NCBI RefSeq assembly: GCF_964204645.1
Contig: NC_134033.1
Span: 2,477,631-2,541,630 of the forward strand
Origin: Tubulanus polymorphus
Taxonomy: Eukaryota; Nemertea; Palaeonemertea; Tubulaniformes; Tubulanidae
Direction of reading: 5' to 3'
Length of the DNA stretch: 64,000 nt
Shown here: piece after piece, positions 20,579-56,098 of the stretch
Layout: every line of letters begins with the position of its first letter
Numbering within the stretch: position 1 is the first letter of the stretch
Notes under the pieces: generated by a model
Told to the model about the DNA's origin: nothing
The model's input: the letters and a program-made list of their open reading frames with translations, nothing else
Database searches by the model: none
Program-made: the position numbers and the translations under genes

Positions 20579-20632
20579 ATTGATGTTTTCGACTGCTTTT
20601 GGGAAAATGTTAAAAAAGTGGGTTTGATTTGA

Positions 20633-20950
20633 CTATGGATCTAGTTCCACAGCTGTCTGGGTTGAACCTAACTCTGGATCCAGTTCCACAGCTGTGTGGG
20701 TTGAACCGAACTCTGGATCCAGTTCCACAGTTGTGTGGGTTGAACCTAACTCTGGATCCAGTTCCACAGTTGTGTGGGTTGAACCGAACTCTGGATCCAG
20801 TTCCACAGTTGTGTGGGTTCGATTTGACTCTGGATCCAGTTCCACAGTTTTGTCAGTTCTCTTTTGATGACCCAGTTCCAATGTTGTGTGGGTATAATTT
20901 GACTTTGTATCCAGTTCCACACTCGTCTGTTCCACAGTCGTGTGCATTTA
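20633..20950 (+). repeat. 39-bp minisatellite with AGTTCCACAG core
   Basis: About eight units carry GGATCCAGTTCCACAGTTGT followed by GTGGGTTGAACC. The array begins about 55 bp after the stop of the secreted precursor. The frames through it are artefacts. A reverse-oriented relative lies at 60935-61260. Confidence 0.9.
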
Positions 20951-23935: not shown

Positions 23936-24337
23936 CTGGGACCTTGGGAATTGGATCCCGTGGTTACACAGATTGGACACATCAGATTTAATCAAGTTAC
24001 GAACCGGTTTCAGACTCGCTATTTAACTTACTACGGATTACGACAGTATAACTGCTGTACTCTGTGGATTCCATAAGGCTCTGGTTCAACTAGGGGCCTG
24101 TCAATCTTCAGCTTTAAACAGAATGAAATTGATTTTGAAAACAAAACTGTAACTGTGCAGTAGGTATGTTTAAAGGTCAGTGAATTCATTATTGTCGAGC
24201 CAACTTTGGAAACGATATGATGAAATAAGATAAGGTGAAATAAAATAATATACAGGCTGAGTCTCTTGACTGGGACATACCACGAGGTCTAAGAATACAA
24301 TTACAACTACTGAATAACTTCACAAACTCAGTGATAT

Positions 24338-24795
24338 CACTGTAGAATTCGCCACCATAAACCCCCTATGACGTAATCACTGCAACTATCCACCTCAATA
24401 AACCCCCTATGACCTCATCACTGTGACTATTCACCTCCATAAACCCCCTATGATGTCCACAACGTAACTATGCACCTCAATAAACCCCATATGATATCAT
24501 CGCTGTAACTAATCACCTCCATAAACCCCCTACGACGTCATCAACGTAACTGTCCACCTCCATAAACCCCCTGGCCCTGACGTCATCACTGTGACTATCC
24601 ACCTCCATAAATCCCCTATGATGTCCACAACGTAACTATGCACCTCAATAAACCCCATATGATATCATCGCTGTAACTAATCACCTCCATAAACCCCCTA
24701 CGACGTCATCAACGTAACTATCCACCTCAATAAACCCCCTGGCCCTGACGTCATCACTGTGACTATCCACCTCCATAAATCCCCTATGACATCAT
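24338..24795. repeat. Tandem repeat with CCATAAACCCCCTATGA and CRE words
   Basis: About ten units of 46-60 bp carry CACCTCCATAAACCCCCTAT followed by GACGTCATCACTGTAACTAT or a variant. Two units contain a perfect TGACGTCA palindrome (about 24577 and 24747). A longer block repeats, since the segment at 24490-24600 resembles 24670-24770. The array sits just downstream of the last mucin exon. Confidence 0.85.
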
Positions 24796-24884
24796 CACTT
24801 GAATTGGTCACATACAAATTGGCTATTTACCGTTCACCCTATCTTTACGACGTTGCCAGTATTTGTATTTGGCATGAAACTCGA

Positions 24885-25034
24885 TTAGATAGAAGCGCCA
24901 CCTACCGTGGGAAATGTTGGCAAGCTGGCAAGGTTAAGGTCGAAATATCCGTTGGTCTCGTCGTCTACGAAATCCACCGAACCATAACGAGGCGGCGCCG
25001 AAATAGCCTCGCTTTCATCGAAGGAAGGAGATAT
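24885..25034 (-). CDS. Mucin last exon: cytoplasmic tail end
   Basis: Phase-0 exon of 49 residues plus stop, acceptor TGCACAG. It is acidic and Ser-rich, with two tyrosine signals of the Y-x-x-hydrophobic type (YGSV and YFDL) that in other membrane proteins can bind adaptors for endocytosis. Confidence 0.75.
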   Translation of the reverse strand: MSPSFDESEAISAPPRYGSVDFVDDETNGYFDLNLASLPTFPTVGGASI

Positions 25035-28000
25035 CTGTGCAGACGAAAAGAAAACAATATATTCTGTATTTTCGAATCCTTTCTTTGTGTTAATGCCAAT
25101 ATTCTCCGAATTCGGAATGTTTTTCAATGACTTTTGTATACGGTCCCGCATGTATGTTACGGTGGTAAACCGCCATCTTATTTTCACTGTAGATAACGTT
25201 ACGATTAAGCCTGCCTAGAATTTTATTAAAAGTTAAAATGAATTGCTTGAATTGAATTTCCACTATGTATTTAGGATACACAATCCTATACGCCTTGTAA
25301 CGACGGAACCCCGGCCTTTGAAGTGTGTCACCGGCACACGCATTTAAGGAATCTTACCCCGTCCCCCCAACTACTTTGGGACGGTGCCGAATGTATATCT
25401 TCGTTGCTTAAAACATGTCCTCCTCGCGTCGACCCGACCGCCACTTCGCCGGTTGTCATTCGCCGCCGATTCTTCCGACTAAAATCAAGCGAAAAACATA
25501 AGTACATAATGTACCAAACATAGTAAACCTGTGATTGATGTGTACTACTTTGAGGAGGGTGTGGCCGAGTTGATTTGAGCGATCAAATCTGGGAAGCCAG
25601 TTCGTGGGTTCGACCCCCGTGCGTTATCGTAGCGTCCTCGGGCAAGACACTTATCTTCATTGCCTCTCTCTTCACCCACGAGTAGATGGGTCTGATAGAT
25701 GACTCCTAAGCGCTTAGTAGCTGCACGATGTTACTTTTCCTCATAGAGAGATGACTGATAAATGGTTATCGTTATAGGCTGGGGGTAATCATAAAAGATT
25801 TAATGGAAAGCAATGTTGAACGTTGAATCTCAGTGAAAAGGGCGCTATAGAAATTAAATTACTAAACTACTAAATCACTCAGTTTTCGAACCCATGAGCA
25901 CCACATTCTAATTGGTTTTATATTGGATGATCTTAAATTGGTCTCCGAAGCCATCGCTATGGAAGTAGTTGCTGAATTGCTAAACTCAATCCTCTTTCTT
26001 TTCATTTTCCAAATGTTTATCAACCTCAAAACTAAATTACGCAAAATTTTGATCCAGTAAAATGTAGAAGGAATTCGAAAATGTTTGAGTTCTTTTCGAA
26101 TTTCAAGTTTAAAAGTACGTACAAATTATTGACGCGATATCTACTCACATGTCGTCGATCGAAAAGAGACGCGACTGACGTCTCATACAACACAGTAATA
26201 TTACCGCTATAACGATAAACAATATAAGACACCCGGCCAATGACAGGCCGATGATCACGCCAACTGTCGACGCGCTTCCGAACAGCGTCGCGCTCGTTTC
26301 ACAACGCGTACCGGAATAGCCATCCGAACAACTGGAAAAACGAAATTAGAAATTATCGAATCTAGATATGATGATTGTATGTACTCGGTATAGAATTATC
26401 ATTTCGAAATAATGCGGCGACTAATGCCTGAATTGCTTACACGAATATGGCAAAAAGAAATGCAATAAAGATGAAACAAATCAGTGTTGTATGAAATTGC
26501 CAGAAACCTCCAATAAACGGTGATTCGGCAATTAGGTGAAATGCTTTCTTTTAAGGATAGTCTTCAAATAAAGACAAATGGCACTTTGGAGGTTAACTTG
26601 AAATTTACGAGCTTTCGCTACTAATGTATAGATTAGCTTCATCGGATAAATGACGAAGCTGATATTCACTATAAGTAGCGAAATCTCATACTTTGAATGA
26701 ATCTAATTAACCTTTGAAGTACTATTTGTCTTAACTTTTACTGATTCGAACCCGCGTTAACACTGCTTCTCAACACATCGCCTCACATACCTGCAGACGG
26801 GCGTATTGTTTGTTATCTGGCATATTCCGTTGTTTCCACACTTGAAGTCGAGGCACTTTGACCGACAGAGCGCTCGAAACGTCCCCGGAGTCGTTACGAA
26901 ACAGTTGTAGCCGTACGGACATATATCGATGACGGCACACGGCTGAGCTTGACTCGCCAAACCTGCAACGAATGTTGGTATATTCTTCAATTTTTTAGAT
27001 CCGAGATATTTTCAGCCACACGTTTATTCGATGCGGTAACGTAAAAAACGCCGCATTCAGACATGGCACACTCGGACGCACACAAACAAAAGTGGATAGT
27101 TTTCCCAGATAAAGTCTTTTTTATGTTTAAACGAAAAATGAATTCATGAAAATTTGTGGATTGCCTACAGTAATTTCTGGCAGACGCCGGCACCGCTACC
27201 GATAAAGATTTCAAACTAGGTTAGCTTTATCAATAATATGATTGATATCATTATCAGAAATTTTCTTTTTTTGAGGGGGAGGGGGTGCGGCCGAGACCCG
27301 CCACAATTCCCCTTGGATCTACCCTTACAGTGCCCTAAGACGCGACAGCAACAAAGTCAACGGTCGGATCAACCTTAAAAGGGGGCTGGATCCATGTCAC
27401 AGAATGAAAACCGACCGAATATTGTCCAGGCTGACGTCAAAGCTACAGCATCCTGTATTGTGAACGTACCTAAATTCTGGTTAAGGTTCGCTTGGTAATT
27501 CAAGAAAAAGCCCGAAAGAGTAGCGTTCGGAACACCGAACAAGGGTTTTACGACGTTCACGTAGAACTGAGCGCCGGCGTTGTAAGTCGGGTCGGTCTGG
27601 GATTTCTGAGCTAAAACTTCGGCGTCGTACAAAACGTTGACGTCGACAATCGTGGAGCCGTTTCTGTAAAAAGAATTAGAAATTGAATGTTCGTCGAGGA
27701 AACCCGGAATTCATGTTGTTGCACTTGAACTACCGCTTGAACTTGAAAAATACACAAAATGGGGTACCCGCAGTGTTATTGTGGCAATCGAGGATTCCAC
27801 GTATGGCAGGCGAGGATCCGCCAGGTTCGCTAGTAGATGGTTGGTCGCCCCTGTTCGATTTCTACTACATCGCGATTAAAATTGAATTTCTCTCTCAAAT
27901 AAATTATGAAAACTAAACCCATATCCGAGGAATAAAATGATTGTATATTTTGTGGATGCTGCGATGATATATGGATCCGGGAGTCTAAAATCCAGTTCAA

Positions 28001-31000
28001 TGTTCATCGAAAATGAACTAATTTTGACAACGGGCGACCTTCTGCTCGTCACGCCATCTGGTGGCATACCCGGACTTGCGATTTATGTTGACAAAAAGTA
28101 AAAAACAATAACCTTAACGCTCTGTCCGTATTTGAAGCGTTAATAGAAGATAAATGAAAAATGATAACTAAGTTACAGGAAGTCAATCTTCCATCAAAGC
28201 AAGATGCTTTAACTCTTTGTGGGGAACAGGTTGCATAATACGATCTTAAGTATTCGAAAAACGTTCAAAATTTATTAGAAAAAAGCCTCAGACCTCAAAC
28301 CGATGATTCCGACGCCCTTGTAACCTAGGATATTTCGTGAGCTCAGCTTTTGTTCCAACTGAAAATGAGAGAGAAGAAAAGAAACAATCAAAATGAATCA
28401 TATACTCATCAAGGATGAAACGTGATGTATACTCGACAAGGATTTTAAGAGAAATATAATACTGACCGCTAGTTTGATTTTCCGCACAAACGCTTGATAT
28501 GCATTAGATTTAGGATTGTTGAAAGCTGGAATGAACGTCGTCAGTAGAGTAAGCGATATCTTTATCGGCAGCGTTTTGTTCACTGTAAAAAGCAAACGAT
28601 CAAAAAAAAGCACGATGTGAAAAAATAGTGATGTAAGAAAGCATTGATATTTCTCAAACGAAAAGAAAGATGTACTAACCAAAGTTGGGTATAGGGCTAG
28701 CGAGAGCTGTAGAAACGGTGTACACTTGTGAATGAGTTGTCAGGGATGCTGTTACAGTAGTCGCAGACGCATTATTGCCTGTAGTTCCACTTGTTGGTGG
28801 TACAGTACTGCCTGTTGTTCCACTAGTTGAAGATACAGTACTCCCTGTTGTTCCACTAGTTGGGGAAACAGTACTCCCTGTTGTTCCACTAGTTGGGGAA
28901 ACAGTACTGCCTGTTGTTCCACTAGTTGGGGAAACCGTACTCCCTGTTGTTCCACTAGTTGAGGACATCGTATTGCCTGATGTTCCAGTAGTTGAAGATA
29001 CAGTACTGCCTGCTGTTGCACTAGTTGAGGAAACAGTACTGCCTGTTGTTCCACTAGTTGAAGATACAGTACTGCCTGTTGTTCCACTAGTTGCGGACAC
29101 AGTACTGCCTGTTGTTCCACTAGTTGGTGATACAGTGCTGCCTGTTGTTCCACTAGTTGGTGATATAGTACTGCCTGCTGTTCCACTAGTTGATGACACA
29201 GTACTGCCTGCTGTTGCACTAGTTGAGGAAACAGTACTGCCTGTTGTTCCACTAGTTGAAGATACAGTACTGCCTGTTGTTCCACTAGTTGGTGATATAG
29301 TACTGCCTGCTGTTCCACTAGTTGAGGAAACAGTACTCCCTGTTGTTCCACTAGTTGGGGAAACAGTACTGCCTGTTGTTCCACTAGTTGGGGAAACAGT
29401 ACTCCCTGTTGTTCCACTAGTTGAGGACATCGTACTGCCTGATGTTCCAGTAGTTGAAGATACAGTACTGCCTGCAGTTGCACTAGTTGAGGAAACAGTA
29501 CTGCCTGATGTGCCACTAGTTGAGGACACAGTACTGCCTGTTGTTCCACTAGTTGAAGATACAGTACTGCCTGTTGTTCCACTAGTTGCGGACACAGTAC
29601 TGCCTGTTGTTCCACTAGTTGGTGATATAGTACTGCCTGCTGTTGCACTAGTTGAGGAAACAGTACTGCCTGTTGTTCCACTAGTTGAAGATACAGTACT
29701 GCCTGTTGTTCCACTAGTTGGTGATATAGTACTGCCTGCTGTTCCACTAGTTGAGGATACAATACTGCCTGTTGTTCCACTAGTTGGGGAAACAGTACTC
29801 CCTGTTGTTCCACTAGTTGGGGAAACAGTACTGCCTGTTGTTCCACTAGTTGGGGAAACAGTACTCCCTGTTATTCCACTAGTTGAGGATATCGTACTGC
29901 CTGATGTTCCAGTAGTTGAAGATACAGTACTGCCTGCTGTTGCACTAGTTGAGGAAACAGTACTGCCTGTTGTTCCACTAGTTGAAGATACAGTACTGCC
30001 TGTTGTTCCACTAGTTGCGGACACAGTACTGCCTGTTGTTCCACTAGTTGGTGATATAGTACTGCCTGCTGTTGCACTAGTTGAGGAAACAGTACTGCCT
30101 GTTGTTCCACTAGTTGAAGATACAGTACTGCCTGTTGTTCCACTAGTTGGTGATATAGCACTGCCTGCTGTTCCACTAGTTGAGGAAACAGTACTCCCAG
30201 TTGTTCCACTAGTTGCGGACACAGAACTGCCTGTTGTTCCACTAGTTGAGGATACAGTACTGCCTGTTGTTCCACTAGTTGAGGATACAGTACTGCCTGT
30301 TGTTGCACTAGTTGGGGACACAGTACTGCCTGTTGTTCCACTAGTTGAAGATACTGTACTGCCTGCTGTTCCACTAGTTGCGGACACAGTACTGCCTGTT
30401 GTTCCACTAGTTGGTGATATAGTACTGCCTGCTGTTGCACTAGTTGAGGAAACAGTACTGCCTGTTGTTCCACTAGTTGAAGATACAGTACTGCCTGTTG
30501 TTCCACTAGTTTGTGATATAGTACTGCCTGCTGTTCCACTAGTTGAGGAAAAAGTACTCCCTGTTGTTCCACTAGTTGGGGAAACAGTTCTGCCTGTTGT
30601 TCCACTAGTTGGGGAAACAGTACTCCCTGTTGTTCCACTAGTTGAGGACATCGTACTGCCTGATGTTCCAGTAGTTGAAGATACAGTACTGCCTGCAGTT
30701 GCACTAGTTGAGGAAACAGTACTGCCTGTTGTGCCACTAGTTGAGGACACAGTACTGCCTGTTGTTCCACTAGTTGAAGATACAGTACTGCCTGTTGTTC
30801 CACTAGTTGAAGATACAGTACTGCCTGTTGTTCCACTAGTTGAAGATACAGTACTGCCTGTTGTTCCACTAGTTGCGGACACAGTACTGCCTGTTGTTCC
30901 ACTAGTTGAAGACACAGTACTGCCTACTGTTGCACTAGTTGAGGAAACAGTACTGCCTGTTGTTCCACTAGTTGAGGACACAGTACTGCCTGTTGTTCCA

Positions 31001-34000
31001 CTAGTTGAAGATACAGTACTGCCTGTTGTTCCACTAGTTGCGGACACAGTACTGCCTGTTGTTCCACTAGTTGGTGATATAGTACTGCCTGCTGTTGCAC
31101 TAGTTGAGGAAACAGTACTGCCTGTTGTTCCACTAGTTGAAGATACAGTACTGCCTGTTGTTCCACTAGTTGGTGATATAGTACTGCCTGCTGTTCCACT
31201 AGTTGAGGATACAGTACTGCCTGTTGTTCCACTAGTTGGGGAAACAGTACTCCCTGTTGTTCCACTAGTTGGGGAAACAGTACTGCCTGTTGTTCCACTA
31301 GTTGGGGAAACAGTACTCCCTGTTATTCCACTAGTTGAGGACATCGTACTGCCTGATGTTCCAGTAGTTGGAGATACAGTACTGCCTGCTGTTGCACTAG
31401 TTGAGGAAACAGTACTGCCTGTTGTTCCACTAGTTGAAGATACAGTACTGCCTGTTGTTCCACTAGTTGCGGACACAGTACTGCCTGTTGTTCCACTAGT
31501 TGGTGATATAGTACTGCCTGCTGTTGCACTAGTTGAGGAAACAGTACTGCCTGTTGTTCCACTAGTTGAAGATACAGTACTGCCTGTTGTTCCACTAGTT
31601 GCGGACACAGTACTGCCTGTTGTTCCACTAGTTGAGGATACAGTACTGCCTGTTGTTCCACTAGTTGCGGACACAGAACTGCCTGTTGTTCCACTAGTTG
31701 AGGATACAGTACTGCCTGTTGTTCCACTAGTTGATGATAGAGTACTGCCTGCTGTTGCACTAGTTGAGGACACAGAACTGCCTGTTGTTGCACTAGTTGG
31801 GGACACAGTACTGCCTGTTGTTCCACTAGTTGAAGATACTGTACTGCCTGCTGTTGCACTAGTTGAGGACACAGTACTGCCTGTTGTTCCACTAGTTGAG
31901 GACACAGTACTGCCTGTTGTTCCAGTAGTTGAGGATACAGTACTGCCTATTGTTCCACTCGTTGATGATACAGTACTACCTGATCTTCCACTAGTTGAGG
32001 ACCCAGGACTGCCTGTTGTTCCACTAGTGAATGATACAGTACTGCCTGTTGTTCCACTAGTCGGGGACACAGTACCGCCGGTTGTTCTACTTGTTGGGGA
32101 CACTGTACTCCTTGATGATGTTGCACTAGTTGAGGATACAGGACTGCCTGTTGTTCCACTCGTTGATGATACAGTACTACCTGATCTTCCACTAGTTGAG
32201 GACCCAGGACTGCCTGATGTTCCACTAGTTGAAGACAAAGTACTGCCTGTTGTTCCACTAGTCGGGGACACAGTACCGCCGGTTGTTCTACTTGTTGGGG
32301 ACACTGTACTCCTTGATGATGTTGCACTAGTTGAGGATACAGGACTGCCTGTTGTTCCACTCGTTGATGATACAGTACTACCTGATCTTCCACTAGTTGA
32401 GGACCCAGGACTGCCTGATGTTCCACTAGTTGAGGACAAAGTACTGCCTGTTGTTCCACTAGTTGGGGATACAGTACTGCCTGATGTTCCACTAGTTGAG
32501 GATACAGTACTGCCTGATGTTCCACTAGTTGAGGACACAGTACTGCCGGTTGTTCTACTTGTTGGGGACACTGTACTCCTTGATGATGTTGCACTAGTTG
32601 AGGATACAGGACTGCCCATTGTTCCACTAGATGGAGATACAGTACTGCCTGTTGCTCCAGTAGTTGAGGACACAGTACTGCCTGTTGTTCCACTGGTTGG
32701 TGATACTGTGCTGCCTATTGTTCCACTAGTTGGGGACACAGTACTACCTGTTGATCCAGTAGTTGATGACACAGTACTGCCTGATGTTCCACTGGTTGAT
32801 GATACAGTACTGCCTGTTGCTACACTAGTAGCGGACACAGTACTGCCTGTTGTTCCACTGGTAAGTGATACAGTACTGCCTGTTGTTCCACTAGTTGACG
32901 ACACAGAACTGCCTGTTGTTCCACTGGTTGGTGATACAGTGCTGCCTATTGTTCCACTAGTTGGGGATACAGTACTGCCTGTTGTTCCACTAGTTGACGA
33001 CACAGAACTGCCTGTTGTTCCACTGGTTGGTGATACAGTGCTGCCTATTGTTCCACTAGTTGGGGATACAGTACTGCCTGTTGTTCCACTAGTTGACGAC
33101 ACAGAACTGCCTGTTGTTTCACTGGTTGGTGATACAGTGCTGCCTATTGTTCCTCTAGTTAAGGACACAGTACTACCTGTTGTTCCACTCGTTGAGGATA
33201 CAGTACTGCCTGTAGTTCCACTAGTTGAGGATACAGTACTCCTTGATGTTGCACTAGTTGAGGAGACAGTACTGCCTGTTATTCCACTAGTTGGGGACAC
33301 AGTACTGCCTGTTGTTCCACTAGTAGGGGACACAGTACTGCCTGTGGTTCCACTAGTTGAGGATACAGTACTGCCTGATGTTCCACTAGTTGGGGATACA
33401 GTACTGCCTGTGGTTCCACTAGTTGGGGACACAGTACCGCCGGTTGTACTACTGGTTGGGGACACAGTACTCCCTGATGTTGCACTAGTTGAGGATACAG
33501 TACTGCCTGATGTTCCACTAGTTGAGGAGAAAGTACTGCCTGATGTTCCACTAGTTGGGGAAACAGTACTGCCTGTTGCTCCACTAGTTAAGGACGCAGT
33601 ATTGCCTGTTGTTCCACTATTTGGGAAAACAGTACTGCCTGTTGTTCCACTAGTTGAAGACAAAGTACTGCCTGTTGTTCCACTGGTTGGTGATACAGTG
33701 CTTCCTTTTTTTCCACTAGTTGAGGACACAGAACTGCTGGTTGTTCCACTAGTTGGCGATACAGTGCTGCTTGATGTTCCACTTTTTGAGGAGACAGAAC
33801 CTCCAGTTGTTCCACTAGTGGAAGACACAGTACTGCCTGTTGTTCCACTAGTTGAGGACACAGTACTGCCTGCTCCACTAGTTGATGACACAATACTGCC
33901 TGTAGTTCCACTAGTTGAGGATACAGTACTGCCTGTTGTTCCACTAGGTGAGGACACAGTACTGCCTGTTGTTCCACTGGTTGGTGATACACTGCTGCCG

Positions 34001-37000
34001 GTTGTTCCATTGGGTGGTGATAAGGTACTGCCTGTTGTTCCACTAGTTGGGGACACAGAACTGCCGGTTGTTCCACTAGTTGAGGACACAATACTGCCTG
34101 TTGTTCCACTATTTGGGGACACAATACTGCCTGTTGTTCCACTAGTTGATGACACAGTACTGCCTGTTGTTCCACTAGTTGAGGACACAGTACTGCCGGT
34201 TGTTCCACTAGTTGAGGACACAGTACTGCCTGTTGTTCCACTAGTTGATGACACAGTACTCCCTGTTGTTCCATTAGTTGAGGATACAGTACTGCCTGTT
34301 GTTCCACTGGTCGATGATACAGTACTGCCTGTTGTTCCACTATTTGGGGACACAGTACTGCCTGTTGTTCCACTAGTTGAGGATACAGTACTGCCTGTTG
34401 TTCCACTAGTTGATGACACAGTACTGCCTGTTGTTCCATTAGTTGAGGATACAGTACTGCCTGTTGTTCCACTGGTCGATGATACAGTACTGCCTGTTGT
34501 TCCACTTGTTGAGGACAAAGTACTGCCTGTTGTTCCACTAGTTGAGGACACAGTACTGCCTGTTGTTTCACTAGTTGAGGACACAGTACTGCCTGTTGTT
34601 CCACTATTTGGGGACACAGTACTGCCTGTTGTTCCACTTGTTGAGGACAAAGTACTGCCTGTTGTTCCACTAGTTGAGGACACAGTACTGCCTGTTGTTC
34701 CACTAGTTGAGGACACAGTACTGCCTGTTGTTTCACTAGTTGAGGACACAGTACTGCCTGTTGTTCCACTATTTGGGGACACAGTACTGCCTGTTGTTCC
34801 ACTTGTTGAGGACAAAGTACTGCCTGTTGTTCCACTAGTTGAGGAAACAGTACTGCCTGTTGTTCCACTAGTTGAGGACACAATACTGCCTGTTGTTCCA
34901 CTAGTTGCGGACACAGTACTGCCTGTTGTTCCACTAGTTGATGACACAGAACTGCCGGTTGTTCCACTGGTTGGTGATACAGTACTGCCTGATGTTCCAC
35001 TAGTTGGGGAAACAGTACTACCTGTTGTTCCACTAGTTGAGGACAGAGTACTGCCTGTTGTTCCACTAGTTGGGGACACAGTACTGCCTGTTGTTCCACT
35101 AGTTCCGGTTACAGAAATGCCTGTTGTTCGACTTGTTGGTGATATAGTGCTGCCGGTTGTTCCACTAGTTGATGATACAGTACTGCCTGTTGTTCCACTA
35201 GTTGAGGACACAGTACTGCCTGTTGTTTCACTAGTTGAGGACACAATACTGCCTGTTGTTCCACTATTTGGGGACACAGTACTGCCTGTTGTTCCACTAG
35301 TTGAGGACACAATACTGCCTGTTGTTCCACTAGTTGGGGACACAGTACTGCCTGTTGTTCCACTAGTCGAGGAAACAGAAATGCCTGTTGTTCCACTCGT
35401 AGATGACACAGAACTGCCTGTTGTTCCACTAGTTGGGGACACAGTACTGCCTGTTGTTCCACTAGTCGAGGAAACAGAAATGCCTGTTGTTCCACTCGTA
35501 GATGACACAGAACTGCCGGTTGTTCCACTAGTTGAGGACACAGTACTGCCTGTTGTTCCACTGGTTGGGGACACAGTACTGCCTGTTGTTCCACTAGTCG
35601 AGGATACACTACTGCTTGTTTTTCCACTAGTTGCGGTTACAGAAATGCCTGTTGTTCCACTAGTTGGTGATATAGTGCTGCCGGTTGTTCCACTAGTTGT
35701 GGACACAGTACTGCCTGTTGTTCCAATAGTTGAAGATATATTGCTGCCTGTTGTTCCACTCGTTGATGACACAGAACTGCCGGTTGTTCCACTGGTTGGT
35801 GATACAGTACTGCCTGTTGTTCCACTAGTTGGGGAAACAGTACTGCCTGTTGTTCCACTAGTAGAGGATACAGTACTGCCTGTTGTTCCACTAGTTGAGG
35901 AAACAGTACTGCCTGTTGTTCCACTAGTCGAGGACACAGTACTGCCTGTTGTTCCACTAGTTGGGGACACAGTACTGCCTGTTGTTCCACTAGTAGAGGA
36001 TACAGTACTGCCTGTTGTTCCACTAGTTGAGGAAACAGTACTGCCTGTTGTTCCACTAGTCGAGGACACAGTACTGCCTGTTGTTCCACTTGTTGAGGAT
36101 ACAGTACTGCCTGTTGTTCCACTAGTTGGGGACACAGTACTGCCTGGTGTTGCACTAGTTGGGGACACAGAACTGCCGGTTGTTCCACTAGTTGAAGATA
36201 TAGTGCTGGCTGTTGTTCCACTCGTTGATGACACAGAACTGCCGGTTGTTCCACTGGTTGGTGATATAGTACTGCCTGGTGTTGCACTAGTTGACGACAC
36301 TGTACTGCCTATTGCTCCAGTAGTTGAGGACACAGAAATTCCTGTTGTTCCACTAGTTGGGGACACAGTACTGCCTGTTGTTCCACTAGTTGCGGTTACA
36401 GAAATGCCTGTTGTCCCACTAGTTGGTGATAAAGTGCTGCCGGTTGTTCCACTAGTTGTGGACACAGTACTGCCTGTTGTTCCACTAGTTGGGGACACAG
36501 TACTGCCTGTTGTTCCACTAGTTGAGGATACAGTACTGCCTGTTGTTCCACTAGTCGAGGAAACTGTACTGCCTGTTGTTCCACTCGTTGATGGCACAGA
36601 ACTGCTGGTTGTTCCACTAGTTGAGGATACAGTACTGCCGGTTTTTCCACTAGTTATGGACTGAGTACTGCCTGTTGTTCCACTAGTTGGGGACACAGTA
36701 CTGCCTGTTGTTCCACTAGTTGCGGTTACAGAAATGCCTGTTGTCCCACTAGTTGGTGATAAAGTGCTGCCGGTTGTTCCACTAGTTGTGGACACAGTAC
36801 TGCCTGTTGTTCCACTAGTTGGGGACACAGTACTGCCTGTTGTTCCACTAGTTGAGGATACAGTACTGCCTGTTGTTCCACTAGTCGAGGAAACTGTACT
36901 GCCTGTTGTTCCACTCGTTGATGGCACAGAACTGCTGGTTGTTCCACTAGTTGAGGATACAGTACTGCCTGTTGTTCCACTAGTTGTGGACACAGTACTG

Positions 37001-46000: not shown

Positions 46001-49000
46001 TTGAATTCGATTATCATCTGATTAGATGTGTTCATAATCACCTGATCTTCCTTATCTTTAACGAGGCTAATCCTGGGACGTTTGCGAACATCTTCATCAG
46101 CTACAAGTGTCACAAGAACAACAGCATTAAAGCAGGCTGTAAATGAAATAACGATGCGCCAGTAATCGTGAGATTGTGATGAAAACGTAAGATTTACCGC
46201 TTGATGAATTTTCGATTCAAACGCTTTGTATTCCGGTGAAGATTGATTGTTGTAATTTTGGTTGAAAGGAATGGTAAATTTCATAGCAAGTGGGACGGGT
46301 ACCGATTTATTACCTACAATATAGATATGCGTAAGAAATTGAATAGTCAGACAAGTTAACGCATGTGCATTGAGAATAAAGCTGTATTCTTTCAATAAGA
46401 CATATTATTTACGTACGTAAATTAGGCTTAGCAGTAGCAGCAATAGGTACAGGAGCAGTAGTAAGAGTAGGTGCAGCAGTCGAGGTCGATGTGTCTACGG
46501 TAATGGAGCTGATAGCTCGGGACAATATAGATGAATCCGTTCGTGAGCTCGTCTGGGTGATCGCTGAGGTTGAAGTGTCTACTGTAGAGAAGATGGCGTT
46601 CGAGGACGGCGTAGATAGATCCGTTCGTGCGGTTGTCTGTGCGTTTGTAGGGGTCGAGGTTTCTACCATGGAAGAGCTGACTGTGGATGAAGACGTAGAT
46701 GAGTCCGTTGGAGAACTCATCTCAGTGCTCACCGAAGATGATGTGTCTACCGTGGAGGAGCTGACAGTCGATGAGGGCGAAGGTTTATCCGTTGTTAAGC
46801 TCGAATCAGTGCTCGCAGAGGCCGATGTGTCTACTGTAGAGGAGCTGACAGCTGGTGACGACGTAGACGAATCCGTTGATGAACTCGACACGGTGCTCGC
46901 CGAGGTTGATAAGTCTACCGTAGAGGATCTGACATTTGAGGACGACGTCGACGAATCCGTTTGTGAGCTCGTCTCGGTGCTCGCCGAGGTTGTTACAGTA
47001 GTTGAGGATACAGCACTGCCTGTTGTTCCACTTGTTGGGGATACAGTACTGCCTGTTGTTGCACTAGTTGAGGATACAGTACTGCCTGAGGTTCCACTAG
47101 TAGAGGACCCAGCACTCCCTGATGTAGCACTAGTTGAAGAAACTATACTGCCTGTCATTACACTTGTTGGGGACAGAGTACTGCCTGTTTTTCCAGTAGT
47201 TGAGGACACAGTACTGCCAATCGTTCCACTAGTTGGGGACCCAGTACTGCCTGATTTTCCTGGTGAGGACACAGTACTGCCTGTTGTTCCACTACTAGTT
47301 GAGGCCCCAGTACTGCCTGTCGTTACACCAGTTGAGGACACAGTACTGCCTGATGTTCCGATAGTTGTGGACCCAGTACTCCCTGGTGTAGCACTAGTTG
47401 AGGACACTGTACTGCCTGTTGTACCACCAGTTGTGGATCCACTACTGCCTGATGTTCCACTAGTTGGAAACACAGTACTGCCTGATGTTCCACTTGTTGA
47501 GGAAACAGTACTGCCTGTTGTTCCACTAGTTGCGGACACAGTACTGCCTGTTGTTCCACCAGTTGTGGATCCACTACTGCCTGATGTTCCAGTAGTTGGA
47601 AATAGAGTACTGCCTGTTGTTCCACTAGTTGAGGATACAGTACTGCCTGTTGTTCCACTAGATGAGGATACAGTACTGCCTGATGTTCCAGTAGTTGGAA
47701 ATAGAGTACCGCCTGTTGTTCCACTAGTTGAGGATACAGTACTGCCTGTTGTTCCACTAGATGAGGATACAGTACTGCCTGTTGTTCCACTAGTTGAAGA
47801 CACAGTACTGCCTGATGTTCCACTAGTTGAGGACACAGTACTGCCTGTGGTTCCACTAGTTGAGGACACAGTACTGCCTGTTGTTCCACCAATTGTGGAT
47901 CCACTACTGCCTGATGTTCCACTAGTTGGAAATAGAGTACTGCCTGTTGTTCCACTAGTTGAAGATACAGTACTCCATGTTGTTCCACTAGTTGGAAATA
48001 CAGTACTGCCTGTTGTTCCACTAGTTGAAGACACAGTACTGCCTGTTGTTAGACTAGTTGGGGACACAGTACTGCCTGTTGTTCCACCAGTTGTGGATCC
48101 ACTACTGCCTGATGTTCCACTAGTTGGAAATAGAGTACTGCCTGTTGTTCCACTAGTTGAAGACACAGTACTGCCTGTTGTTAGATTAGTTGGGGACACA
48201 GTACTGCCTGTTGTTCCACCAGTTGTGGATCCACTACTGCCTGTTGTTCCACTAGTTGGAAATACAGTACTGCCTGTGGTTCCACTAGTTGAGGACACAG
48301 TACTGCCTGTTGTTCCACCAATTGTGGATCCACTACTGCCTGATGTTCCACTAGTTGGAAATAGAGTACTGCCTGTTGTTCCACTAGTTGAAGATACAGT
48401 ACTGCCTGTTGTTCCACTTGTTGAGGACACAGTACTGCCTGTTGTTCCACTAGTTGAAGATACATTACTGCCTGTTGTTCCACTAGTTGAGGACACAGTA
48501 CTGCCTGTTGTTCCACCAGTTGTGGATCCACTACTGCCTGATGTTCCACTAGTTGGGGATACAGTACTGCCTGATGTTCCACTAGTTGAGGACACAGTAC
48601 TGCCTGTTGTTCCACCAGTTGTGGATCCACTACTGCCTGTTGCTCCAGTAGTTGAGGACACAGTGCTGCCTGTTGTTCCACTAGTTGGGGACACAGTACT
48701 GCCTGATGTTCCACTTGTTGGGAATACAGTAGTGACTGCTGTTCCACTATTTGAGGGCAGAGTACTCCCTGCTGTTCCAATAGTCGATGATACAGTACTC
48801 CCTGATATTCCACTCGTTGAGGATACAGAACTGTCTGTCGTTCCACCAGTTAAGAACACAGAACTACCTGTCGTTCCACTAGACTGGAACACAGTACTCC
48901 CTGATGTCCCACTAGTTGAGGACACAGTACTGCCTGTCATTCCACTAGCTATGGACCCAGTACTGCCTGTTGTTCCACTAGACAGGGACACTGTACTGCC

Positions 49001-52000
49001 TGTCATTCCACTAGTTTGGGACACAGTACTGCCTGATGTTCCACTAGTTGAGGACACTGTACTGCCTGTCATCCCACTAGTTTGGGACACAGTACTGCCT
49101 GATGTTCCACTAGTTGAGGACACCATACTGCCTGTTGTTCCACTAGTTGAGGACCCAGTACTGCCTATCGTTCCACTAGTTTGGGACACAGTACTGCCTG
49201 ATGTTCCACTAGTTGAGGACACCGTACTGCCTGTCGTTCCACTAGTTTGGGACACAGTCATCACTGTAGTTGAAAATAATGAGGTTGGTGCCATGCTTGT
49301 GCCTGTTGTACCAGTGGTTGGGGATGCAGAACTGTATGTTGTACTAATACTTGCACTACTGCTCGTCGGTGTCGAGGAACATGTCACATTCGTGGAATTT
49401 TTATCATGTAGAAAGCATGTGTAACCACTTGGGCAGACATTTACTACACTACAAGGGTCAACTCTCATCGCTAAAACAGAAGACCAGTATTGTACACAAT
49501 TATTATGGCTTTCAGGTTATTTTGATGAATATAACTAGTTTCCTCTATTGAAATGAACTATTTTCGTAAGATAACCACTGTCACAATTAAAATGATTCGG
49601 ACCATCGAATCTTGAATCCATTTTTTTCCGATTTTCAGATGTAAAATACCTTTAATACTTTCAGTTGTGAACGTCGTGTTGATTGGCAGGCCGTCAATTG
49701 CAGTAATATTTGACATCGTCTCTAGTAAAGCTTGCTGAACAAGTTGTTCGATGCTGAAACCTTGGGTATTTGCTGCATCCACGAGGGGTCCAAGATTCAT
49801 CACCATTTCAAAATCCACAGTAACGCTGCCCTGACTATATAAATGTACTTTATAAACATTGCTATCAGAATATATATACAGTATGTAACAGTTGATTAAT
49901 TGAATTCGATTATCATCTGATTGGATGTGTTCATAATCACCTGATCTTCCTAATCTTTAACGAGGCTAATCCTGGGACATTTGCGAACATCTTCATCAGC
50001 TACAAGTGTCACAAAAACAACAGCATTAAAGCAGGCTGTAAATGAAATAACGATGCGCCAGTAATCGTGAGAATGTGATGAAAACGTAAGATTTACCGCT
50101 TGATGAATTTTCGATTCAAAGGCTTTGTATTCCGGTGAAGATTGATTGTTGTAATTTTGGTTGAAAGGAATGGTAAATTTCATAGCAAGTGGGACGGGTA
50201 CCGATTTATTACCTACAATATAGATATATGCGTAAGAAATTGAATAGTCAGACAAGTTAAAACATGTGTATTGAGAATAAAGCTGTATTCTTTCAATAAG
50301 ACATATTATTTACGTACGTAAATTGGGCTTAGCAGTAGCAGCAATAGGTACAGGAGCAGTAGTAAGAGTAGGTGCAGCAGTCGAGGTCGATATGTCTACG
50401 GTAATGGAGCTGATAGCTCGGGACCATATAGATGAATCCGTTCGTGAGCTCGTCTGGGTGATCGCTGAGGTTGAAGTGTCTACTGTAGAGAAGATGGCGT
50501 TCGAGGACGGCGTAGATAGATCCGTTCGTGCGGTTGTCTGTGCGTTTGTAGGGGTCGAGGTTTCTACCATGGAAGAGCTGACTGTGGATGAAGACGTAGA
50601 TGAGTCCGTTGGAGAACTCATCTCAGTGCTCACCGAAGATGATGTGTCTACCGTGGAGGAGCTGACAGTCGATGAGGGCGAAGGTTTATCCGTTGTTAAG
50701 CTCGAATCAGTGCTCGCAGAGGCCGATGTGTCTACTGTAGAGGAGCTGACAGCTGGTGACGACGTAGACGAATCCGTTGATGAACTCGACACGGTGCTCG
50801 CCGAGGTTGATAAGTCTACCGTAGAGGATCTGACATTTGAGGACGACGTCGACGAATCCGTTTGTGAGCTCGTCTCGGTGCTCGCCGAGGTTGTTACAGT
50901 AGTTGAGGATACAGCACTGCCTGTTGTTCCACTTGTTGGGGATACAGTACTGCCTGTTGTTGCACTAGTTGAGGATACAGTACTGCCTGAGGTTCCACTA
51001 GTAGAGGACCCAGCACTCCCTGATGTAGCACTAGTTGAAGAAACTATACTGCCTGTCATTACACTTGTTGGGGACAGAGTACTGCCTGTTTTTCCAGTAG
51101 TTGGGGACACAGTACTGCCAATCGTTCCACTAGTTGGGGACCCAGTACTGCCTGATTTTCCTGTTGAGGACACAGTACTGCCTGTTGTCCCACTAGTTGA
51201 GGCCCCAGTACTGCCTGTCGTTACACCAGTTGAGGACACAGTACTGCCTGATGTTCCGATAGTTGTGGACCCAGTACTCCCTGGTGTAGCACTAGTTGAG
51301 GACACTGTACTGCCTGTTGTTCCACCAGTTGTGGATCCACTACTGCCTGATGTTCCACTAGTTGGAAACACAGTACTGCCTGATGTTCCACTAGTTGAGG
51401 AAACAGTACTGCCTGTTGTTCCACTAGTTGCGGACACAGTACTGCCTGTTGTTCCACCAGTTGTGGATCCACTACTGCCTGATGTTCCAGTAGTTGGAAA
51501 TAGAGTACTGCCTGTTGTTCCACTAGTTGAGGATACAGTACTGCCTGTTGTTCCACTAGTTGAAGATACAGTACTGCCTGATGTTCCACTAGTTGAGGAC
51601 ACAGTACTGCCTGATGTTCCACTAGTTGGAAATACAGTACTGCCTGTGGTTCCACTAGTTGAGGACACAGTACTGCCTGTTGTTCCACCAATTGTGGATC
51701 CACTACTGCCTGATGTTCCACTAGTTGGAAATAGAGTACTGCCTGTTGTTCCACTAGTTGAAGATACAGTGCTGCCTGTTGTTCCACTAGTTGAGGACAC
51801 AGTACTGCCCGTTGTTAGACTAGTTGGGGACACAGTACTGCCTGTTGTTCCACCAGTTGTGGATCCACTACTGCCTGTTGTTCCACTAGTTGGAAATACA
51901 GTACTGCCTGTTGTTCCACTAGTTGAAGACACAGTACTGCCTGTTGTTAGACTAGTTGGGGACACAGTACTGCCTGTTGTTCCACCAGTTGTGGATCCAC

Positions 52001-55000
52001 TACTGCCTGTTGTTCCACTAGTTGGAAATACAGTACTGCCTGATGTTCCACTAGTTGAGGACACAGTACTGCCTGTTGTTCCACCAGTTGTGGATCCACT
52101 ACTGCCTGTTGTTCCACTAGTTGGAAATACAGTACTGCCTGATGTTCCACTAGTTGAGGACACAGTACTGCCTGATGTTCCACTAGTTGGAAATAGAGTA
52201 CTGCCTGTTGTTCCACTAGTTGAAGATACAGTACTGCCTGTTGTTCCACTTGTTGAGGACACAGTACTGCCTGTTGTTCCACCAGTTGTGGATCCACTAC
52301 TGCCTGATGTTCCACTAGTTGGGGATACAGTACTGCCTGATGTTCCACTAGTTGAGGACACAGTACTGCCTGCTGTTCCACTAGTTGAAGATACAGTACT
52401 GCCTGTTGTTCCACTAGTTGAAGATACAGTACTGCCTGTTGTTCCACTAGTTGAAGATACAGTACTGCCTGTTGTTACACTAGTTGAGGACACAGTACTG
52501 CCTGTTGTTCCACTAGTTGGGGACACAGTACTGCCTGTTGTTCCACTAGGTGAGGACATAGTAGTGCCTGTTGTTCCACTAGTTGGAAATACAGTACTGC
52601 CTGTTGTTCCACTAGGTGAGGACACAGTACTGCCTGTTGTTCCACTAGTTGGAAATACAGTACTGCCTGTTGTTCCACTAGGTGAGGACATAGTAGTGCC
52701 TGTTGCTCCAGTAGTTGATGACACAGTACTGCCGGTTGTTCCACTGGGTGAGGACACAGTACTGCCTGTTGTTCCACTTGTTGATGACACAGTACTGCCT
52801 GTTGTTCCACTAGTTGGGAATACAGTACTGCCTGTTGTTCCACCAGTTGTCGATGCACTACTGCCTGATGTTCCACTAGTTGGGGATACAGTACTGCCTG
52901 ATGTTCCACTAGTTGAGGACACAGTACTGCCTGATGTTCCACTAGTTGAGGACACAGTACTGCCTGTTGTTCCACTAGTTGGAAATACAGTACTGCCTGT
53001 TGTTCCACTAGGTGAGGACATAGTAGTGCCTGTTGCTCCAGTAGTTGAGGACACAGTACTGCCTGTTGTTCCACTAGTTGGGGACACAGTACTGCCTGTT
53101 GTTCCACTAGTTGATGACACAGTACTGCCGGTTGTTCCACTGGGTGAGGACACAGTACTGCCTGTTGTTCCACTAGTTGATGACACAGTACTGCCTGTTG
53201 TTCCACTAGTTGGGAATACAGTACTGCCTGTTGTTCCACCAGTTGTCGATGCACTACTGCCTGATATTCCACTAGTTGAGGACAGAGTAGAGGAGCTGAC
53301 AGTTGACGACGACAAAGACAAATTCCAATCCGATGGTGAGCTTGTCTCGGTATTCCCCGAAGTTGACGTGTCCACATTAGTGGAACTGACAGTTGACGAA
53401 AATGTTGATGAATCCGCTGGTGAGGTCGTCTCGGTGCTCGCCGAGGTTGACGTGTCCACGTTAGTGGAACTAACAGTTGACGAAAATGTTGATAAATCCG
53501 TCGATGAACTCGTTTCGGTGCTCGTCAAGGTTGATGTATCTACGGCAGTGGAGCTAACAGTCGGGAACGACGTAGATGAATATGTTGACGAGATCGTCTC
53601 GGTGCTTGCTGAAGTTGATGAGTCTACCGTAGAGGAGCTGACCGTCGACGAAAATGTTGATGAATCCGTTGATGAACTCGTCTCGGTGCTCGCCGAGGTT
53701 GACGTGTCTACCGTAGAAGAGCTGACAGTCGAGGAAGACGTAGACGAATCCGTTGGTGAACTCGTCTTGGTGCTCGCCGAGGTTGACGTGTCTACCGTAG
53801 AAGAGCTGACAGTCGAGGACGGCGAAGACAAATTCCAAACCGATGGTGAGCTTGTCTCGGTACTCCCCGAAGTTGACGTATCCACGTTAGTGGAACTGAC
53901 AGTTGATGAAAATGTTGATGAATCCGTTGGTGAACTCGTCTCGGTGCTCGCCGAAGTTGATGATGCAGTACCGGCTGCTGTACTTGTCTCAGTAGATATT
54001 GGTGAATGAGATGAAGTTGTTGATTCAGTTGTTTTCAATGTAGTTGTTGTGGTCGTTACTACTTTTCGTACGCAATTTATTGCATGAGTGTCGTTGTGTA
54101 TAACGCAATCGTATCCCGCTGGACATGTTTTCTTCTTTGCACACGGATCTGCCTTTTTTACCGCCGCTGAAAACATAAGACAACAAAATTGGTTCTTTGT
54201 GAGGGGTCGCAATGTCGCCAATTGTGTATTTTCATAACAGGTCAAAGCAGAACACGACTCGCACAGTAAACCCCTCATGTCATCATATGGAATTATGGAT
54301 GAACCTCAAGGTTGATTCGGAAATAACTAGATTTACATAGGATAGAAAGTTTTTTCCAAACCAGGGGGGGGGGACCGGTTGCATAGTCAAGACCAACTTG
54401 ACTCTATAGCCGATCTAACAACTTAAGATCAATCTTAAGACTTAAGACCTTTTTGACTTAAGTCATGACTGTGCAACTGGCCCCCGGACTTTTGGTTTCC
54501 TTGAGTTGATATTAGGTAAGTCAGTTGGCTGCAGAGATATTGATCCTACTTCTAATGGGGTGGATTTTGTACTTTCATTGCCATTTTGAATGATCTTTCT
54601 CTAACTCACTTTTAATTGACTTGGAAATACTGTTATTCAAACTCTTCATATTGACTGTCGTGCCGTTCAAACTAATATTCTTCGCAGTTTCAAGAATCAG
54701 TTGTTGAAACTTTTGCAAATCCGCCATGTTCACGTTGAAATTGAATTCGACCGCCACGCTTCCATTTCTGAAACGTACGAAGATATATACGCCACTTATT
54801 ACTCGGGAATTCCCGATCGGGTCGTACGAGGCTTGGACGTGGGCAGAGGAAGGTCCCGGGAGTACCACCTATATGTAAGCCTTCCAAAATTCCCTTAGAA
54901 GATTTAAAATCCTTTTACACTGAAGACAACTCTTACACTGACTAACTCTGCTCAATGCGATGGTGCTGCGCAGATGGTGCACAGGGAATTGCACAATTTT

Positions 55001-56098
55001 ATTTAAGATGATGCTAGCCCGAAAAACAAACAAAAACAATTCTTTAAACATGTCCTGTGTCTTTGTTTGTCGTTGAAATGTTATGCCGACTGTGCTTTAG
55101 GCTTTAGATTTGATGTTGAAATTTAACCAATGTTGTTCAAATCTTTCCATATTTTCGGCCAAAATTGTAACCTCATTAAATAGAGTAAGCTCAAACCTGT
55201 ATCCACCCAAATCCAGTTGATTACATCCGGGTAAATGGCGACATACTTCGTCCATCTGAAAAATATGGAATTTCTCTTCAAAATCAAATGGTGCCGACTT
55301 CAAAAGCTCGACAAACCTTAATGAAAATCTCTTTTTAGGATTAAAAAGAAATTCTAGATCCTCGGTTTCCCAAGATTAACCTTATTGGATTGTTCATTAA
55401 ACCTCCCGACGAGATCATGGCATTTTAAGTGTTGCCCGCACACTGTAAGCAGCCAGCAGGACGGAACCTGCTTACCGAATCAACTGCTGTTTTTAAAGTA
55501 GTTATACCTTCGCTTGTAAATAGCTGGAGACGTCTCGATATATCTGTGTTTGATTGTTCGCCAGATCGGCTATAAAAGGTGTGTCGAATGTCATCGTGAT
55601 TTTGTTTGATATCGACACATTCGCTGGAATGATATATTTAGAAACAAAATGAACGAATTTAACGTCATTAGCCTTTAAAATGATACCTTGTTTCTCACTT
55701 CTGCTGAGCTTTAGAGTAGACCTGGGGGCCGCCTATCTACTCTGTACATAAGTTTTTTTAAAATCATGATCAAACTAACAATAAAAAACCCGGCAATTGT
55801 TGAAATAAACTGATCACAAAATATATTGCAGTTTACAAAAGTGACCCGGCCGACTATGGGAAACAAGGTATCAACTTTTTCAGCTTTAGGCGAAATATTT
55901 CCACTGAAAAAAGTCGTAAGTAAATGTCATAATGAACGGAAAGAATTTCTAAATTTATGATTCGACCAACTTTTCGGTTTTTGTACCTGGGATTATTTCT
56001 GTTATCACGGTGGTATTCGTCTGAGATTTGATGCGTAGAATATGAAGTAATCCGAATAGTCCGGTGACTAGAATACTGTACGGCTGACTTGCGGCCAT
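24885..56098 (-). CDS. Giant multi-SEA transmembrane mucin (28 coding exons, about 8,280 residues)
   Basis: I assembled minus-strand exons by splice sites and frame. The exons are 56098..55987; 55623..55508, 55255..55197, 54767..54610; 54166..50318; 50212..50097, 49999..49941, 49834..49650; 49470..46417; 46313..46198, 46100..46042, 45935..45751; 45568..43256; 43149..43034, 42928..42870, 42763..42579; 42399..39229; 39044..38929, 38755..38697, 38620..38436; 38249..28680; 28582..28467, 28358..28294, 27663..27470; 26962..26791; 26331..26149; 25478..25358; 25034..24885. They sum to 24,843 nt with every junction in phase. Domain order is signal peptide, then (SEA, 4-Cys motif, Ser/Thr/Gly repeats) five times, then SEA, 4-Cys motif, EGF-like, one TM helix and a cytoplasmic tail. 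Expected at the apical cell surface as a heavily O-glycosylated barrier or mucus protein. Transcript evidence could alter minor exons. Confidence 0.85.
25358..25478 (-). CDS. Mucin exon 27: cytoplasmic tail, basic part
   Basis: A 121-nt exon between GATTTTAG and GGG|GTAAGA that converts phase 2 to phase 0, the only arrangement I found that links the TM exon to the last exon. It encodes IRKNRRRMTTGEVAVGS and on to SSWGDG. Confidence 0.7.
25552..25877 (+). mobile_element. tRNA-derived SINE with MetaSINE-like central domain
   Basis: The head has an A box (GTGTGGCCGAGTTGA) and B box (GTGGGTTCGACCCCC). It is followed by GTCCTCGGGCAAGACACTTA and a TTGCCTCTCTCTTCACCCA stretch, the conserved central block known from MetaSINE-type animal SINEs, and then a GGGCGCTATAGAAATTAAAT tail. 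It lies in a mucin intron, opposite to the gene. Confidence 0.8.
26149..26331 (-). CDS. Mucin exon: EGF C-terminus, transmembrane helix
   Basis: It completes the EGF-like domain (CSDGYSGTRCE). After a short Ser/Ala linker comes one hydrophobic segment of about 24 residues (VGVIIGLSLAGCLILFIVIA and on to LLCC). The stop-transfer sequence MRRQSRLFSIDD follows, with a PKA-like RRQS. Type I orientation follows from the signal peptide and the basic cytoplasmic flank. Confidence 0.85.
26569..26737. mobile_element. Foldback (MITE-like) element in mucin intron
   Basis: Outer arms GACAAATGGCACTTTGGAGG and the complement of CCTTTGAAGTACTATTTGTC pair. Inner arms around GCTTTCGCTACTAATG and TATAAGTAGCGAAAT also pair, giving a hairpin of about 165 bp. 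No coding sequence. Confidence 0.75.
26791..26962 (-). CDS. Mucin exon: sixth 4-Cys motif and EGF-like N-terminus
   Basis: Encodes LASQAQPCAVIDICPYGYNC and on to ALC, the same C-x5-C-x5-C-x11-C motif that opens each mucin exon. Next is CLDFKCGNNGIC-x8-C, the first part of the membrane-proximal EGF-like domain that is finished in the next exon. Confidence 0.85.
27470..28582 (-). CDS. Mucin SEA domain 6 (three exons)
   Basis: Exons 28582..28467 (116 nt), 28358..28294 (65 nt) and 27663..27470 (194 nt). The strand before the cleavage loop reads YKGVGIIGLR, and the next exon begins NGSTIVDVNVLYD. This matches the SEA G-S-V-x-V site except for Thr in place of Val after Ser. It is the most membrane-proximal SEA and the most diverged, with six extra bases in exon b. 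Confidence 0.82.
28680..38249 (-). CDS. Mucin repeat exon 5: single 9,570-nt exon
   Basis: One uninterrupted exon (acceptor GTTATAG, donor TTTG|GTTAGT, phase 1-1) of about 3,190 residues. It opens with LQIDPCSAVGLCPNGFTC and on to VTC (C-x5-C-x5-C-x11-C). After a short Thr/Ser linker come roughly 280 copies of an 11-residue unit near GSTVSSTSGTT. Over half of residues are Ser or Thr, a dense O-glycosylation region. Higher-order blocks recur: the marker variant GATGTTCCAGTAGTTG (plus strand) appears near 28979, 29440, 29903, 30661 and 31356, at multiples of 33 bp. The ends fall back to irregular Thr/Ser sequence (TTVTASLTTHSQVYTVSTA). Confidence 0.85.
38436..39044 (-). CDS. Mucin SEA domain 5 (three exons)
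   Basis: Exons 39044..38929 (116 nt), 38755..38697 (59 nt) and 38620..38436 (185 nt). Encodes NATLSVPFSISFNVLFNTNY, then LTALFSNIPGFSALKIKNIR, then QGSVIVDFGISANL and on to YTTESIK. GSVIV matches the SEA autoproteolysis consensus. A run of conserved residues in the third exon (ETMxNxTxIxxLPxNTT) is shared with SEA 2-4. Confidence 0.85.
39229..42399 (-). CDS. Mucin repeat exon 4
   Basis: 3,171 nt, about 1,057 residues, phase 1-1. It starts MRIDPCSAVNVCPNGYTC, has a transition with PTTGTTGTSMSPTS, then about 90 units of the 11-residue repeat, and ends with Ser/Thr sequence (VDTSTLETSSQTVSFTS) before the SEA. A block with a GGSTVYTTSGTTGSTMSS variant occurs twice about 1.15 kb apart, showing internal duplication. 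Confidence 0.85.
42579..43149 (-). CDS. Mucin SEA domain 4 (three exons)
   Basis: Exons 43149..43034 (116 nt), 42928..42870 (59 nt) and 42763..42579 (185 nt). Encodes NKSVPVPLGMKFTIPFNPNY, then LMKMFANVPGLASIKIRKIR, then SQGSVTVDFEMVMNLGPL. The acceptor of the third exon must be TATATAG|TCAGGG to stay in phase; the nearer TCAG|GG would shift the frame. Confidence 0.85.
43256..45568 (-). CDS. Mucin repeat exon 3
   Basis: 2,313 nt, about 771 residues, the shortest repeat exon. It starts MRVDPCSVVNVCPSGYTC, has about 50 more diverged 11-residue units, then about 200 residues of non-11-mer Ser/Thr sequence with STSASTETSSPTDSST words, ending AATAKPNLR across the junction to SEA 4. Confidence 0.85.
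45751..46313 (-). CDS. Mucin SEA domain 3 (three exons)
   Basis: Exons 46313..46198 (116 nt), 46100..46042 (59 nt) and 45935..45751 (185 nt). Nearly identical to SEA 2 in exons and introns, with the QGSVTVDF cleavage-type site. The acceptor used by exon c is CATAG|TCAGGG. Confidence 0.85.
46417..49470 (-). CDS. Mucin repeat exon 2
   Basis: 3,054 nt, about 1,018 residues. It starts MRVDPCSVVNVCPSGYTC, carries 11-residue repeats including GSSGSTTGGTT variants, and ends with about 190 residues of STSASTETSS-type sequence. The last 900 nt are almost the same as those of repeat exon 1. Confidence 0.85.
49650..50212 (-). CDS. Mucin SEA domain 2 (three exons)
   Basis: Exons 50212..50097 (116 nt), 49999..49941 (59 nt) and 49834..49650 (185 nt). 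Encodes NKSVPVPLAMKFTIPFNQNY, the middle strand ending in IR, and QGSVTVDFEMVMNLGPLVDA. Confidence 0.85.
50318..54166 (-). CDS. Mucin repeat exon 1
   Basis: 3,849 nt, about 1,283 residues. It starts TAVKKADPCAKKKTCPAGYDC with the four-Cys motif (last spacing x10). A Thr run and about 270 residues of STSASTETSSPTDSST sequence come before the 11-residue array, and a similar non-11-mer block follows it. It ends AATAKPNLR, joining NKSVPVP of SEA 2. Confidence 0.85.
54364..54487. mobile_element. MITE-like element with GGGGGCCAGTTGCA-type ends
   Basis: The left end GGGGGGACCGGTTGCATAGT and the complement of the right end (GGGGGCCAGTTGCACAGTCA) form terminal inverted repeats. The interior is built of CTTAAGTC/GACTTAAG palindromic words. 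It lies in the intron between SEA 1 and repeat exon 1. Confidence 0.75.
54610..55623 (-). CDS. Mucin SEA domain 1 (three exons)
   Basis: Exons 55623..55508 (116 nt), 55255..55197 (59 nt) and 54767..54610 (158 nt). Encodes NVSISNKITMTFDTPFIADL, then MDEVCRHLPGCNQLDLGGYR, then NGSVAVEFNFNVNMADLQKF and on to SKSIK. NGSVAV matches the SEA cleavage consensus. The second exon has two Cys not seen in SEA 2-6. Confidence 0.82.
55987..56098 (-). CDS. Mucin first coding exon: signal peptide
   Basis: ATG at 56098, then MAASQPYSILVTGLFGLLHI, a hydrophobic signal, and TNTTVITEIIP before donor CCAG|GTACAA. It joins in phase to ANVSISNK of SEA 1. The exon continues 30 bp upstream to a good acceptor (CACTTTCAG, exon edge 56128), so at least one 5'-UTR exon lies further to the right. 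Confidence 0.7.

Follow-up and report, generated by a model that had tools for sequence, protein, structure and literature searches.

MUC1 and the related designs of MUC3, MUC12 and MUC17 combine a mucin region with a single, self-cleaving SEA domain near the membrane, a transmembrane segment (TM) and a cytoplasmic tail, with EGF present in MUC3, MUC12 and MUC17. Self-cleavage of the mucin SEA domain, which depends also on strain in the fold, is regarded as a mechanical fuse, and studies of it have dealt with molecules carrying a single fuse. The known cleavage motif is G↓S[V/I]VV (PMC10687090; the arrow marks the cleavage position), the SEA site of the ADGRF receptors is GSIVA (PMC6954182), and the halves of a cleaved SEA domain stay together until pulled apart by force (PMC6954182, PMC11681175). 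On epithelium models, a cleavable MUC1 SEA gives less friction and damage (PMC11681175). Human MUC16 (CA125), a giant membrane mucin, was described by Lang et al. (2006, PMC1552070) as the only mucin known to have multiple SEA domains; its ~56 SEAs form repeats of 156 aa that follow a single huge mucin region at the N-terminus, and EGF is absent (PMC4456727, PMC3431878, PMC9080433). A motif-like site (DSVLV) has been reported in one MUC16 SEA only (PMC4456727, PMC3431878), and cleavage in the last two MUC16 SEAs was not seen (PMC4456727). Mucin4-like proteins of sea anemones have a C-terminal SEA (PMC9080433). Our literature searches found no lophotrochozoan multi-SEA mucin.

Gene structure

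The window analysed here is a stretch of 64,000 nucleotides from the nemertean Tubulanus polymorphus. Exon joining on its minus strand, from an ATG at 56098 to a stop at 24885, yields 28 exons with a coding sequence of 24,843 nt and a protein of 8,280 aa (Table 1), with a predicted mass of ~769 kDa before sugars. The junctions were placed by hand on a three-frame minus-strand reading and then joined by script, independently of the earlier model. The initial annotation had proposed one giant gene of about 8,280 residues, in 28 in-phase minus-strand exons totalling 24,843 nt, and the rebuild arrived at the same size and an identical count. GT-AG is found at every internal junction and all phases fit. 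In-frame stops, which had been named as a possible objection, were looked for after joining; the single stop in the joined coding sequence is the terminal one, with none inside the 8,280 residues. Introns measure 76-670 bp. No in-frame stop separates the ATG from an acceptor-like CAG located before it, so the true start could be further upstream.

Table 1. Features of the giant mucin gene, in window coordinates. SEA scores in bits refer to Pfam PF01390; MUC1 to MUC5 are mucin exons of this gene.
Feature	Position	Strand	Remarks
Exon 1, start codon, probable signal peptide MAASQPYSILVTGLFGLLHILRIKSQ, aa 1-38	55987..56098	-	GT donor; signal peptide judged by eye
SEA1, exons 55508-55623, 55197-55255, 54610-54767	54610..55623	-	14.8 bits; cleavage-like RNG↓SVAV after aa 98
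MUC1 exon, 3,849 nt: 4-Cys, then 28-aa and 11-aa Ser/Thr repeats	50318..54166	-	
SEA2, exons 50097-50212, 49941-49999, 49650-49834	49650..50212	-	38.8 bits; QG↓SVTV after aa 1492
MUC2 exon, 3,054 nt: 4-Cys and repeats	46417..49470	-	
SEA3, exons 46198-46313, 46042-46100, 45751-45935	45751..46313	-	near identity to SEA2; QG↓SVTV after aa 2630
MUC3 exon, 2,313 nt: 4-Cys and repeats	43256..45568	-	
SEA4, exons 43034-43149, 42870-42928, 42579-42763	42579..43149	-	39.8 bits; QG↓SVTV after aa 3521
MUC4 exon, 3,171 nt: 4-Cys and repeats	39229..42399	-	
SEA5, exons 38929-39044, 38697-38755, 38436-38620	38436..39044	-	31.4 bits; QG↓SVIV after aa 4698
MUC5 exon, 9,570 nt, 3,190 aa: 4-Cys and 11-aa repeats	28680..38249	-	
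SEA6, exons 28467-28582, 28294-28358, 27470-27663	27470..28582	-	27.0 bits; RNG↓STIV after aa 8010
Membrane-proximal 4-Cys and first part of EGF-like domain	26791..26962	-	EGF models sub-threshold, best E 5e-4
EGF end, single TM, cytoplasmic tail start	26149..26331	-	hydropathy peak 3.2
Cytoplasmic exon 1	25358..25478	-	exon joining
Cytoplasmic exon 2 and stop; PPRY, two YxxPhi-type motifs (YGSV, YFDL)	24885..25034	-	

The modules are near-identical tandem copies, as they would be if several head-to-tail genes, or partly separate transcripts, merely resembled one. That reading is nevertheless very improbable: the introns linking each mucin exon to the following SEA are only 97-184 bp long, the phases all fit, no start with a signal sequence was seen before SEA2 to SEA6, and neither a TM nor a stop occurs before the gene's end in the joined model. 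The one strong membrane segment lies near the C-terminus (windows starting at aa 8143-8168). A hydropathy bump at aa 4630, at the end of MUC4, reaches 1.62, compared with 3.2 for the TM, and was rejected as a membrane segment. Because of the short mucin-to-SEA introns, the sole C-terminal TM and the purifying selection on the SEA exons described below, we regard one gene as the sole sensible reading of the sequence of the whole locus.

The MUC5 exon has no stops in its own frame, and the two remaining sense frames contain 32 and 250; the long minus-strand reading frame is not due to chance. Openness alone is weak evidence, since one antisense frame of these repeats is likewise almost open (2 stops in 3,189 codons), and the case for coding is carried by homology, phases and selection. 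The long plus-strand reading frames (28736-36664 and others) were rejected as genes and look like a side effect of the 33-nt repeat. Among 100 regular MUC5 repeat units, variability is 0.095 at the first codon position, 0.045 at the second and 0.154 at the third; third positions are the most variable, as expected of a coding repeat.

Module architecture and mucin repeats

After the probable signal peptide, the unit SEA/4-Cys/mucin occurs five times and is followed by SEA6, 4-Cys, EGF, TM and tail. The strict alternation of SEA, 4-Cys and mucin first described for this locus thus holds for modules 1-5, while the last module departs from it in ending with 4-Cys, EGF and TM. All five mucin exons are of phase 1-1 and open with the 4-Cys motif, C-x5-C-x5-C-x(10-11)-C. 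Owing to this symmetric phase 1-1 cassette, the loss of any one mucin exon, or of a complete module, leaves the frame of the joined model intact. The mucin exons contain an 11-residue repeat, TSGTTGSTVSS/P, joined in MUC1 to MUC3 by a 28-residue repeat. Together they comprise 7,319 residues, with 58-65% Ser+Thr, and space the SEA domains by 771-3,190 aa. The share of Pro (3.1-4.2%) is low for a PTS mucin and counts against the mucin reading. Of the features expected of a transmembrane mucin, Ser/Thr-rich tandem repeats, a SEA (or VWD) domain, TM and a cytoplasmic tail, the repeats, SEA, TM and tail are found. The PPRY and YxxPhi-type motifs of the tail may serve WW-domain binding and endocytosis.

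SEA domains

All six SEA domains, the number originally reported, were recovered, each on three exons with the common phases 1-0, 0-2 and 2-1. When the joined SEA exons were searched with PF01390 (cut-off 26.4 bits), SEA2, SEA4, SEA5 and SEA6 scored over the cut-off, and SEA3 is identical to SEA2 except at one residue. SEA1 falls below it (E 0.031); its three-exon phase plan and GSVAV site are as in the others. The domain search suggested earlier for the joined protein therefore bears out SEA2, 4, 5 and 6, and leaves SEA1 and the EGF models sub-threshold. A search of the unspliced genome with the SEA family gave no score for these six domains, each being split over three exons, and its sole find was a protease gene on C8. 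Since the joined exons score where the unspliced genome does not, it is splicing that restores the domain.

When a profile built from five of these SEAs was compared with solved structures, the best match was ADGRF1 (E 9.5e-6), followed by TMPRSS11D (E 0.0026). The RNGSIVA site of ADGRF1 aligns with the mucin sites, and the ADGRF1 chain 8hc0_B terminates at the Gly aligned with the mucin's G↓S; this chain end is consistent with self-cleavage at the aligned position. ADGRF1 and ADGRF5 are themselves receptors, unlike the giant mucin.

Predicted self-cleavage sites

G↓S is present at the self-cleavage position, between strands 2 and 3, in six of six SEAs, within GSVAV (SEA1), GSVTV (SEA2-4), GSVIV (SEA5) and GSTIV (SEA6). 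Both residues are among the 21 invariant columns of five SEA/4-Cys modules that are ~30% identical to the first module. At position 4 the sites have A, T or I in place of the V of GSVVV, and in SEA6 position 3 differs too (T); both deviations count against cleavage. On balance the protein probably exists, as read from these sites, in up to seven non-covalently held chain pieces.

Alternatively, the SEAs might serve as spacers or as knobs for binding and stay uncleaved, with little or no serial self-cleavage, in a plain long glycocalyx mucin. The variation at motif positions 3-4 would fit this, as would the precedent of MUC16, where most SEAs lack the motif and predicted cleavages near the membrane end were not seen (PMC4456727). 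Against it, G↓S is kept in all six domains despite strong divergence, in contrast to the ESVLLTF of a relative on C1 (see below), and we consider uncleaved SEAs rather unlikely.

Comparison with known mucins

In MUC16 the SEAs form a packed array of dense ~156-aa repeats without EGF; here six SEAs lie far apart in the chain, G↓S is found in all, and EGF is present. MUC1, MUC3, MUC12 and MUC17 have a single membrane-proximal SEA, whereas here the SEA recurs throughout the ectodomain, each copy being followed by a 4-Cys and the last also by one EGF. By sequence, the design is a SEA-mucin variant outside the MUC16 and MUC3/12/17 plans. It suggests that multi-SEA mucins arose outside the MUC16 plan too, through exon-cassette duplication, and its six intact-looking fuses at differing distances from the membrane offer a natural test of the fuse idea.

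Proposed mechanism

The locus is likely a single functional gene encoding a SEA mucin of type I, tethered to the membrane and cassette-duplicated, with predicted serial SEA cleavage and staged break-away. A phase 1-1 cassette of SEA, 4-Cys and Ser/Thr-rich repeats would have been tandemly duplicated on a SEA/4-Cys/EGF/TM stem. O-glycosylation of the Ser/Thr repeats would produce a rod ~1.8 micrometres long, this figure being the mucin part at a pitch of 0.25 nm per residue (PMC10687090). Each SEA would cut itself at G↓S during folding; if all were cut, seven pieces of 98, 1394, 1138, 891, 1177, 3312 and 270 aa would stand in series, kept together by the pairing of SEA strands. When the coat is sheared or something adheres to it, the chain would part at the weakest loaded SEA, the outer part being shed and the rest staying tethered, a staged break-away in contrast to the single one of MUC1-type mucins. 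Sugars or other contacts could hold the pieces together, which counts against staged shedding. Coat length could further be regulated by leaving out mucin exons, as this keeps the frame. We put forward only tentatively the fullest form of the proposal, a backbone of seven cleaved chains joined solely by SEAs and a micrometre-scale coat shed stepwise according to joint strength.

Selection, duplication and relatives in the genome

Judged by sequence comparison, the SEA exons are under purifying selection: dN/dS is 0.09-0.18 among SEA2-4, and a comparison of modules 2 and 4 gives 95% identity for the SEA exons against 82% for their introns. A decaying or pseudogene copy is extremely unlikely, given the low dN/dS, 8,280 open codons and intact splice sites.

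Identity is 97.4% between the SEA2 and SEA3 blocks, 87-88% between SEA4 and either of them, and ~58% for SEA5; the mucin tails preceding the SEA2 and SEA3 blocks are 96% identical. This gradation is, on sequence grounds, the record of repeated, partly recent, tandem duplication of modules. The SEA2 and SEA3 blocks with their preceding tails are so alike (96-97%) that their divergence approaches that between alleles of some marine animals, as haplotypes in tandem or collapsed repeats might. The module number depends on the assembly where neighbours are 97% identical. That it is an assembly effect is improbable, however, as the modules of SEA4, SEA5, SEA1 and SEA6 are distinct (87-88%, 58% and less), so that at least five SEAs stand even with one false copy.

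Searches of the genome yielded no close paralogue for the SEA, the EGF or the tail, and among the genome matches listed none places the 11-residue repeat outside the mucin gene. A gene on another chromosome, C1 (G000:C1, L048, minus strand, about 5160-4260) has a SEA half, 4-Cys, EGF and TM in the same order as the giant mucin, and the phases after the SEA and after the EGF exon are alike. It differs in being short, in having no mucin repeats seen nearby and in its site, ESVLLTF, where Gly is replaced by Glu. The comparison suggests that the C1 gene reflects the ancestral stem and that the giant architecture is an expansion of it.

The gene on C8 (G000:C8, 8.874-8.888 Mb, plus strand; L046:4743-5753 and L047:1895-7594) probably encodes a membrane serine protease of type II that carries two SEA domains and, assigned by eye, mucin-like repeats (TTASPTTM), LDLa, an SRCR-like domain and trypsin. 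This would make it the genome's second design in which SEA and mucin-like parts alternate. At G000:C9:11.68-11.75 Mb there are six EGF-like exon matches in tandem, sharing 39-50% identity with the EGF of the mucin. The genome also has 145 Neur_chan_LBD exon matches, which suggest a lophotrochozoan-like repertoire and no more.

Surroundings of the gene

A 39-bp minisatellite flanks the gene in opposite orientations (20632-20853, plus strand, and 60955-61136). For the copy at 20632-20853, at least 170 matches spread across many chromosomes identify it as a dispersed repeat. A 41/82/168-bp tandem repeat (24336-24799) starts ~86 bp past the mucin stop codon. Elsewhere in the window are two intron-poor rhodopsin-type GPCR frames (2241-3320 and 16837-17916, both plus strand) and an intron-poor flavin amine oxidase frame (9955-11379, minus strand).
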